Source: Pyrodictiaceae archaeon
GTDB lineage: Archaea; Thermoproteota; Thermoprotei_A; Sulfolobales; WANQ01
Assembly: GCA_015521735.1 (NCBI GenBank)
Contig: WANQ01000033.1
Coordinates: 1-64,000, forward strand
Reading direction: 5' to 3'
Length of the DNA: 64,000 bases
Shown: one piece after another, positions 55,474 through 58,095 of the stretch
How the letters are laid out: every line of letters begins with the position of its first letter
How positions within the stretch are numbered: position 1 is the stretch's first letter
Position numbers and translations under genes: made by a program
The notes under the pieces: generated by a model
What the model saw: the letters and a program-made list of their open reading frames with translations, nothing else
Database searches by the model: none
Told to the model about the DNA's origin: nothing

Positions 55474-56454
55474 TTAACTAAGTTCTAGTTTCTGGCTTAG
55501 GGATTTAATGAAAACTAGTAGGAGAGGTAAGCCTAGGAAAATCATTGTACTAAGTACTAGTAGCCTTATGACCACTACTTCTTCGGGACTTAATACTAGG
55601 CTTAATCCATACTCTAGTCCTCCGCTAGCACCTGGTGTAGGTATCACACCCATAGCATTATAGAATAATAGTGCTTGAAAAGCTTTGTATAAGGTTATCT
55701 TACTGTTTACACTTAGTGATGCATAGTAAAATGCTAGTGTTAGGATGAAATACTTGGTTAGTGTTAAAGAGAGTACCGACATAATTATTCGGTGAGGTTT
55801 TACAGCTGTTACTACATTATTTATTGATGTTACTGCTGATAAGATAGTAGTTAACGCGTTTCTAATGAAGCCCTTAGAAGCTTTGTGAATACTCTCTAGT
55901 AGCTTCCTAAGTTTCTTTACTCTTGGTGCTAGGAATAGTATATTCCATGCAACAACATTGTATGTGGAGGTTAAGACTGCTACAATCGATAGAGGTAGTT
56001 TATGTAATGCTAATACTAGTGCGGGTATGTTGACCAACACTATATCCCAGTAGTCTTCAAATAAAGTAGTTATTACTGACTTCATGAGGCTAATACCATA
56101 AAAGGAGAGTATGAGTGCACGTGCTGGTTCACCACCTATAGATGAGGGTGTAGCTAATGCAACTATATTGCCCATAAGCCTTGCACGTAATGCGTCTATG
56201 AATTTTATTCTATGACCTATACTTTTCACTAACACCATTAATCTAAACGCATCAATTACATTTACCAACGCGAATAATGTTACCGATAACGCTATGTACT
56301 TAGTGTCAGCACTTAGTAATACGTATACATCAACATTAGTTATCAACATATATATTGCTAGAACTATTACTACCACGATAACGACTAGTACTAATTTTCG
56401 AAGTATGCTTAGTGAAAGAATAGAATGTGCTTCCTTACTAGTATTTAAAGACAT
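55474..56454 (-). CDS. Lysylphosphatidylglycerol synthase-like flippase (UPF0104)
   Basis: A 326-residue protein with about eight helices of the LPG_synthase_TM (UPF0104/YbhN) family. Typical segments are LRARLMGNIVALATPSSIGG with EPARALIL and AMGVIPTPGASGGLEYGLSL. In archaea such proteins are often linked to polyprenol-linked sugar or lipid transfer. It lies six bases from the release factor gene on the same strand. Confidence 0.85.
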   Translation of the reverse strand: MSLNTSKEAHSILSLSILRKLVLVVIVVVIVLAIYMLITNVDVYVLLSADTKYIALSVTLFALVNVIDAFRLMVLVKSIGHRIKFIDALRARLMGNIVALATPSSIGGEPARALILSFYGISLMKSVITTLFEDYWDIVLVNIPALVLALHKLPLSIVAVLTSTYNVVAWNILFLAPRVKKLRKLLESIHKASKGFIRNALTTILSAVTSINNVVTAVKPHRIIMSVLSLTLTKYFILTLAFYYASLSVNSKITLYKAFQALLFYNAMGVIPTPGASGGLEYGLSLVLSPEEVVVIRLLVLSTMIFLGLPLLLVFIKSLSQKLELS

Positions 56455-56460
56455 TTGACA

Positions 56461-57568
56461 CTAGCCTATCCTGTACCTAAGTATACCTACTAGGCCTCCA
56501 AACGTCTTCTTAATCCATTCTCCTTCAGGTATATCATCACTTATAAAGTATACTTTTGTACCATACTTCTTAGCTTCTTCTTCTATGAGTTCTGCATCAC
56601 TTCTTTCTTCATCAATTATTATAGCTTTTAATGCACCCATTTTTAATGCTTCAAGTACTTCTTCATCACCATAAACTATTAGTCCATCATCTTTAGCTAA
56701 ATGGTATTTGAACTCTTCTAAAGCTTTCAATGCCTCAACATACATTTGGCCTTGTATTAGATCGGAAGCCTTCATAACTAGTTCTCTAAGGCCAGCCTCT
56801 CCTTGATAGGACACATCAATTAGTTGTGGTAGGACTTTCTGCTTAAGCCTATAGTCAAGGTATCCTCCCTTAACGAAATCTTGTTTAGCGTATCCTGGTC
56901 CTCCAATTATTATACCCTTAAGCAATCCTTTCTCAAGTAATGGTAAGAAGTGCTTGGTAGCATGCTCTCCTACACGTTTGAAGAACTCTTCTACTAGTTG
57001 CTCAATAATTCTATCAAATCTTCTCTGACTTTGACCACCTTTATGGTGTTTACCTGGTACGTAGCCTTCTAGTTCCTCAAGAACCTTAAGTCTACTACCT
57101 TTAAGTAATCCTATTGTTGCAGCATCTCTCTCTATTATTATTATTCCAAATGTTTCTCTTTCTTCAACCATGTCTTCGAGGAATTCTGTATGGAACCATT
57201 TATCGGTTCTATAGAAGAATACTGGTACAGGATCAGGTGGTGCAAATACATAGCATATAAACTTCCCTGTATTCATGTCTTCTCCACAGAATACTACTAA
57301 ACCTGTATCTGGCGTCTTAGGAATCTTTGTTAACCTGTCAATAGCTGATGTTAACGCTCTCTGCACCGCATCACGTGTACGTTTAAGCTTAATGTTATCA
57401 GTTATAGATAGTTCCTGCCTTAACAAGTTTACTACGTCACTTATGGGTCTACCAGGAGGTATATATAGACTTAACAGTACGGTAGCCGGAGCACTCCATT
57501 TCTTCAATTCCTTGAGTAGCTCCTTTAATTGCCTTCTAGATATTTTTAGTCTCTCACTAAATACTCAT
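56461..57568 (-). CDS. prf1: Peptide chain release factor aRF1, start separated by a +1 frameshift
   Basis: The archaeal class I release factor ends translation at all three stop codons. The GGQ motif is [12 protein letters not shown], and NIKLKRTR takes the place of the NIKS stop-reading loop. In the coding frame the first usual start is a TTG at 57507, giving 348 residues and cutting off the conserved first helix. That helix ([20 protein letters not shown]) is encoded upstream in the same frame, but without a start codon. An ATG at 57568 stands where the gene should begin, in the other frame: ATG AGT ATT TAG. Skipping the T at 57559 joins it to the body, giving about 368 residues, the usual length. 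See findings. Confidence 0.9.
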
Positions 57569-57594
57569 CCCTCAAACCCCGGCTACTTTCATTT

Positions 57595-57615
57595 TCCTAG
57601 AGCTTAAAAGTTTAA
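57595..57615 (-). promoter_or_regulatory. Promoter of the release factor gene
   Basis: Read leftward, CTTAAACTTTTAAGC (about 57617-57603) is TATA-like and lies about 35-45 bases before the ATG at 57568, so the transcript would begin roughly 10-15 bases before that ATG. The leader also contains ATGAAAGTAGCC with a TGA five codons later in the ATG frame. This supports initiation in the 57560-57590 area and not at the TTG at 57507. Confidence 0.4.
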
Positions 57616-57657: not shown

Positions 57658-58095
57658 TTAAGTTGAGATGTAGAAGGCGTATTGTGTGGTAGTGGGTAGT
57701 ATTTGTCGTAACAACATTATTTGAGGCCGGTATATTATCAACTGTTTCGCCTTCTTATTAATATTAATATTAAGTATTCTTGAAACTATTTTTACTTCCA
57801 CTTCTCCTCTAATAACTCCTACACCTTCACCAAGTTCAGGTCTTATCTCAATTATTATAGGTAAATAAAGCTTGCTCCACTCCTCTCTAGGTATAATACT
57901 TGCTAAATACTCGAGCTCTCTTCTCTTAAAGTAATGAAGCGTTCCATCCCTTAACACAACATGTGGAAACTCTTGTTCAAGTAATTCTGACAATGCTACG
58001 CGTCTATATGGTAAATGCTTATTTACTATTCTAAGTTCTTTCTCCAAGTATTCCTCTATTTTACTAAGCTTTTCGAGATCCCCAGTGTACCGCAT
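57658..58095 (-). CDS. UPF0216 (DUF61) protein
   Basis: A 145-residue archaeal protein of the UPF0216/DUF61 family: NKHLPYRRVALSELL, VVLRDGTLHYFKRRELEYLA and YLPIIIEIRPELGEG are the family hallmarks. Function unknown. It follows atpD after seven bases in the ATPase operon and precedes the release factor. It is conserved and intact. Confidence 0.9.
   Translation of the reverse strand: MRYTGDLEKLSKIEEYLEKELRIVNKHLPYRRVALSELLEQEFPHVVLRDGTLHYFKRRELEYLASIIPREEWSKLYLPIIIEIRPELGEGVGVIRGEVEVKIVSRILNININKKAKQLIIYRPQIMLLRQILPTTTQYAFYIST

Follow-up and report, generated by a model that had tools for sequence, protein, structure and literature searches.

The locus studied here raises the question of how prf1, the gene of the archaeal release factor aRF1, is translated when the frame that opens at its expected start codon closes again after three codons. 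The window, by which we mean the whole 64,000-nucleotide stretch of DNA analysed, carries on its minus strand the mini-ORF ATG AGT ATT (Met-Ser-Ile, 57560-57568), composed of ATG at 57568-57566, AGT at 57565-57563 and ATT at 57562-57560, and this is followed by TAG at 57559-57557, the two last codons forming a putative shift site of slippery NTT plus stop, ATT TAG (57557-57562, minus strand). A second stop of the start frame, TGA (57554-57556, minus strand), abuts the TAG. The aRF1 frame is +1 relative to the ATG and runs TTT (57561-57559), AGT (57558-57556), GAG, AGA, CTA, AAA, ATA, TCT; past the shift, from this AGT through the stop codon, it occupies 56461-57558 on the minus strand. The identity of the product as aRF1 was established with the NCBIfam model TIGR03676, on which it scores 457 bits where 234.7 is the cut-off, and with the Pfam domains eRF1_1, eRF1_2 and eRF1_3, with GGQ present in the translation, and apart from this single interruption the frame remains open. 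Within the aRF1 frame, TGA at 57567-57565 precedes the TTT, and on the minus strand of the window no ATG, GTG or TTG lies ahead of the TTG at 57507-57505, which is the first canonical start in that frame and residue 19 counting from TTT. The first-pass annotation had described precisely this gene start, ATG AGT ATT TAG TGA with aRF1 in the +1 frame, and the lack of ATG, GTG and TTG in the coding frame above 57507; both descriptions were confirmed on the minus strand, with coordinates correct to within a few bases. The gene is flanked upstream by a DUF61 protein (57661-58095, minus strand), with apparent ATP synthase subunits farther upstream, and downstream by a membrane protein of the lysylphosphatidylglycerol-synthase type (55477-56454, minus strand).

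The 5' ends of prf1 were surveyed in 175 genomes from 11 families of the window's order, together with 80 named records; families are given here by code (f-numbers), and family names were assigned by sequence match and record titles. The architecture counted was a start codon, usually one or two further codons, NTT and a stop, followed by aRF1 in the +1 frame. It was observed in 115 of the 175 genomes and in seven of the 11 families, a recurrence which confirms that the prf1 arrangement is real and more than chance. In four families the site was complete, covering all 87 genomes (f1, 4/4; f11, 31/31; f9, 37/37; f3, 15/15), and it was partial in f2 (23/30), f4 (4/5) and f10 (1/3). An uninterrupted ATG-started frame in relatives, which the first-pass annotation had named as a refutation, was seen neither in the four f1 genomes nor in whole sister families. 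Several of the genomes bearing the site are single-contig assemblies, and many of those surveyed are metagenome-assembled.

The form of the site differs from family to family. In f1, the family of the window, ATG AGT ATT TAG is identical in all four genomes, while the Sulfolobaceae-like f11 shows ATG AGT CTT TGA in 29 of 31 genomes and ATG AGT CTT TAG in the other two; its CTT TGA is mostly followed by C, which gives the heptamer CTT TGA C of bacterial prfB, and records of Metallosphaera and Aramenus display the same sequence as f11. Nearly all members of the Desulfurococcaceae-like f9 combine ATG, then AGT, GGT or GGC, then TTT or CTT, then TAG, with a few carrying GTG or a variant second codon, and the Staphylothermus and Thermogladius records match this family. 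Mostly ATG, TCT or CCT, ATT and one of TAG, TGA or TAA make up the site in f3, and mostly GTG, two codons and ATT TAG in f2; two of the four site-bearing genomes of f4 start with TTG and are weaker cases. Ahead of the stop, the mini-ORF comprises ATG with two further codons in 86 genomes and GTG with three in 22, and in 53 of the 115 genomes a second start-frame stop follows within two codons of the first.

In families f5, f6, f7 and f8, some of which bear Aeropyrum/Acidilobaceae-like and Pyrodictiaceae-like names, prf1 starts in frame in the ordinary way and the site is absent; single matches to the automatic rule in f6 and f8, one in each, were taken as chance and left uncounted. A few members depart from the pattern of the site, namely genomes G014, G170 and G172, in which the gene is in frame, and G042 and G171, in which the spacing is wrong. 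On the aRF1 tree, the presence and absence of the site take four changes within the order, so that the site is old; its origin likely lies close to the root of the order or at the root itself, with several losses afterwards. Some individual loci deserve separate mention. In genus g13 of f2 the GTG start has moved in frame in L073, L324 and L326, and in L084 and L322 the spacing differs by a single base and none of the canonical starts fits. The f2 loci L021 and L024 have the variant ATG AAG TAT TAG C, in which simple re-pairing of the P-site codon at the next base is not possible. In L079 of f4 (G044) ATT TAG C is present and the start frame offers only ATA, and L004 of f7 (G019) has a prf1 with neither the NTT-stop nor an in-frame ATG, GTG or TTG before the first helix, its sister G181 having GTG/ATG. 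Two prf1 matches from f15 (G217:C30:30484-31698 and G238:C6:801-2015) contain one in-frame TAG each, possibly reflecting pyrrolysine or another recoding.

Part of the invariance of TTT across the 115 sites follows from the selection rule itself, so the test of the slippery codon was redone in f1, f3, f9 and f11, the four complete families, in which every genome has the site and the rule excluded none. All 69 full-length genes of these families encode the slippery Phe as TTT. By contrast, 51 other near-invariant columns all mix codons, each switching at least eight times on the tree, and at six other near-invariant Phe columns the share of TTT among the genes is 13-54%. At the first slippery position A, C, T and G all occur while TTT stays fixed, giving CTTT or TTTT in f11 and f9 and ATTT in the window, f1, f2, f3 and f4. 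The stop is TAG at 83 of the 115 sites, TGA at 30 and TAA at two, and Ser is encoded by AGT/AGC in every TAG case as against 46% among the Ser codons of these genes, the stop and Ser counts being partly implied by the selection rule over all 115 sites and free of it in f1, f3, f9 and f11. As TAG, TGA and TAA all occur, the encoded residue varies (Ser, Asp, Glu, Asn) and yet a stop persists; the base after it is C at 82 of the 115 sites. On the other side of the stop, the leader codons drift synonymously in the ATG frame (AGT/AGC, GGT/GGC, TCT/TCC, ATC GGC/ATT GGT). From the shift site to a conserved Trp, pN/pS is 0.11-0.28 in f1, f2, f3, f9 and f11, with synonymous differences nearly saturated in f9 and f11, and by these ratios the segment ahead of the TTG is evolving as protein. 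The substitution patterns show the slippery nucleotides and both reading frames to be under selection.

With these data, the explanations that place the cause in one genome or in another start codon can be weighed. The arrangement was first seen in one genome only, and the first-pass annotation had named a sequencing error and a recent mutation as simpler explanations; a start at TTG 57507 is considered along with these. All four f1 genomes and more than 100 others, single-contig genomes included, turned out to have the arrangement, and error and recent mutation are excluded because relatives share the interruption, use three different stops, keep TTT invariant and drift synonymously in the leader. 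Relatives do not keep the TTG as a start, and starting there would delete the first long helix, residues 9-19 in the AlphaFold2 model (mean pLDDT 86.9), in agreement with the earlier expectation of helix loss. As a general solution this start is excluded as well: from the site to LYxPPG, 31 of the 115 genes offer no canonical start (ATG, GTG or TTG) in frame with aRF1, and in the remaining ones the first canonical start between these points lies at scattered positions. Taken together, an error, a mutation or a TTG start in the window has a negligible probability. Back from the site to the preceding in-frame stop, 88 of the 115 genes lack any canonical start; the other 27 have one somewhere upstream, which is a point against the +1 reading. 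It is also conceivable that a non-standard codon close to TTT opens translation directly in the aRF1 frame, with the mini-ORF unused or serving as a leader peptide with re-initiation, and here a GTG before TTT in G012 and the upstream in-frame GTG of some genomes can be cited in favour. The codon before TTT is however inconstant (GTA, GTC, GTT, GCC, GCT, CTA, CTG, GCA and others), for which reason a GTN start at that place was rejected; moreover, NTT is always followed directly by the stop, the synonymous drift of the leader keeps to the ATG frame, and no start codon is shared in the aRF1 frame. We consider this explanation, of which the first-pass annotation had raised the non-standard start, to be very unlikely.

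The explanation that we favour, with a probability of roughly 85%, is that prf1 is read by programmed +1 frameshifting at the early stop and autoregulates aRF1 in the way prfB does RF2. Such a prfB-like reading had been suggested from the window itself, and order-wide conservation, the invariance of TTT and the drift of the leader now argue for it at the sequence level. Archaea have one omnipotent class-I factor that reads all three stops. Ribosomes would initiate at ATG 57568, synthesise Met-Ser-Ile and pause with ATT in the P site and TAG in the A site. When aRF1 is plentiful, termination at the TAG would follow and no aRF1 product would be made, whereas when it is scarce the pause would be longer, the P-site tRNA could slip from ATT to TTT by a single base, and translation would enter the aRF1 frame at AGT GAG AGA, the outcome being a negative feedback on the sole archaeal class-I release factor. 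From the conserved architecture we infer the shift event, the slippage in the P site and the dependence on aRF1 level. Re-pairing of NTT at TTT would be full for TTT, by wobble for CTT and with a first-position mismatch for ATT and GTT, and the mismatch that the window's own ATT would carry is a point against the shift, as are the GGG lying 6 nt and not 3 nt ahead of NTTT and the few members that depart from the pattern. In the open-licence literature, no N-terminal proteomics or ribosome profiling of Sulfolobus prf1 was found.

Two variants of this scheme differ in what makes the ribosome or the message change frame. The +1 shift may be real but constitutive, a fixed fraction of ribosomes shifting without any sensing of the aRF1 level, and since the site lies at codon 3-4, where early elongation may exert effects of other kinds, this has some plausibility. 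Nevertheless, a constitutive shift could equally use a slow sense codon, while some stop is always retained here though Ser, Asp, Glu and Asn interchange, and the gene product is exactly the factor that reads the stop of the shift site; we therefore regard a shift without sensing as unlikely, though less so than a non-standard start. The T run at the site, up to TTTTT in f9, might otherwise favour transcriptional slippage that drops one U from part of the mRNA, but the run is just three T in f1, f2, f3, f4 and f11, which is too short for known transcriptional slippage, and such a process would leave the stop codon with no need for conservation. Its probability is as negligible as that of a sequencing error.

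The proposed +1 shift raises the further matter of upstream signals. A Shine-Dalgarno-like GAGGG (57569-57573, minus strand) abuts the ATG and ends 6 nt ahead of the slippery ATT, and a TATA-like box, TTTTAAG (57603-57609, minus strand), lies 41 nt ahead of the start codon. The GGG before ATG is conserved in f1 and f11 and mostly so in f9 and f3, and at the 3' end of the 16S three relatives show GGATCACCTC. In f11, perfect TATA-like hexamers are concentrated 36-40 nt upstream, and in f1 they lie at 41; from these a leader of about 10-12 nt is predicted for the window, the transcript starting just upstream of the ATG. Because the boxes predict so short a leader, the GGG may serve initiation and not the shift. 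A Shine-Dalgarno element 3 nt before the slippery site, as in prfB, was looked for and not found, GRGGG ending 6 nt before NTTT. Pairing of the UGAG of ATGAG with the Sulfolobus-type 16S end (GGATCACCTCA) was rejected as not general, most f9 members having ATG GGT. The eS26 protein of Saccharolobus has been reported to be incompatible with a Shine-Dalgarno duplex (PMC11698992).

Three known recoding systems come closest to the prf1 site. With bacterial prfB, the gene of RF2 (PMC12421855), it shares an interruption close to the 5' end of a class-I release factor gene, with the main frame at +1, a stop that the encoded factor should be able to read, and, in relatives though not literally in the window with its ATT, a pyrimidine ahead of TT and the stop (most genomes of the Sulfolobaceae-like type have CTT TGA C); also shared are the loss of the site when the gene is in frame, and C after the stop (82 of 115 archaeal sites). 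In the bacterial survey the stop was readable by RF2 in 100% of the genomes, the motif was lost when the gene was in frame, and the C after the stop is said to weaken termination (PMC12421855). Unlike RF2, however, aRF1 belongs to the unrelated aRF1/eRF1 (archaeal/eukaryotic) family, and the archaeal shift falls at codon 3-4 as against about codon 25, uses NTT where prfB has nearly always CTT (rarely TTTT before the stop), has TAG as its commonest stop, and is without the AGGGGG located 3 nt before the slippery site. The eRF1-like gene of Mimivirus and Megavirus, from the same protein family as aRF1, was described by Jeudy et al. (2012, PMC3521657) to shift +1 at either CUU UAG C or CUU UAA C, close to the CTT TAG of f9; the viral site lies within the gene and is accompanied by UGA readthrough, whereas the window's gene has a single interruption. 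The same authors stated that such control is absent from the archaeal and eukaryotic homologues (PMC3521657). Programmed frameshifting has been described in the same archaeal group for fucA1 of Saccharolobus solfataricus, a metabolic gene with a -1 frameshift at A-AAA-AAT, and this differs in the direction of the shift and in having no stop-dependent feedback; the available sections of an archaeal recoding review call fucA1 the sole reported archaeal -1 case and make no mention of a release factor gene (PMC8211752). The archaeal prf1 site may have been overlooked because the detector of a 2013 frameshift survey misses sites less than 50 nt from the start (PMC3711429). Full-text searches of open-licence papers turned up no report of a frameshift in an archaeal release factor gene, and one could exist in a subscription paper.

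Beyond the order, a possible -1 version of the site was noticed by sequence in two further families, f26 and f31. All 21 readable prf1 genes of f26 (L280-L298, L300 and L301) have a mini-ORF of ATG or GTG, up to four codons and a final GAA TAA, with aRF1 in the -1 frame and often without an in-frame aRF1 start; the leaders read M-E, M-D-A-L-E, M-D-V-L-E and M-V-D-A-L-E, with synonymous changes. The stop of f26 is less telling by itself, because ATA is the commonest Ile codon there (62%). Four of four genomes of one genus in f31 (L355, L366, L367 and L368) display ATG GAA TAG C with aRF1 in the -1 frame. Ordinary prf1 starts were seen in f18 and nearly all other lineages of the phylum sampled. 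That the phylum evolved stop-dependent recoding of its release factor gene at least twice, as +1 in the window's order and separately as -1 in f26 and f31, is in our judgement evenly balanced; if true, archaeal aRF1 would be a repeatedly evolved self-sensing gene in parallel to bacterial prfB.

Should the +1 shift be as we propose, this would give archaea their first autoregulated release factor gene and the aRF1/eRF1 family its first cellular example. It would represent a convergence with Mimivirus and with bacterial prfB, in part down to the identical CTT TGA C heptamer, with the logic of prfB built in a non-homologous gene, and it bears on the question of Jeudy et al. whether such control was ever present in the archaeal/eukaryotic line. 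Across the order, the annotated N-termini of prf1 are probably wrong. The 5' end of prf1 would also offer a natural reporter of +1 frameshifting for the archaeal ribosome, and Sulfolobus is genetically tractable for testing it.
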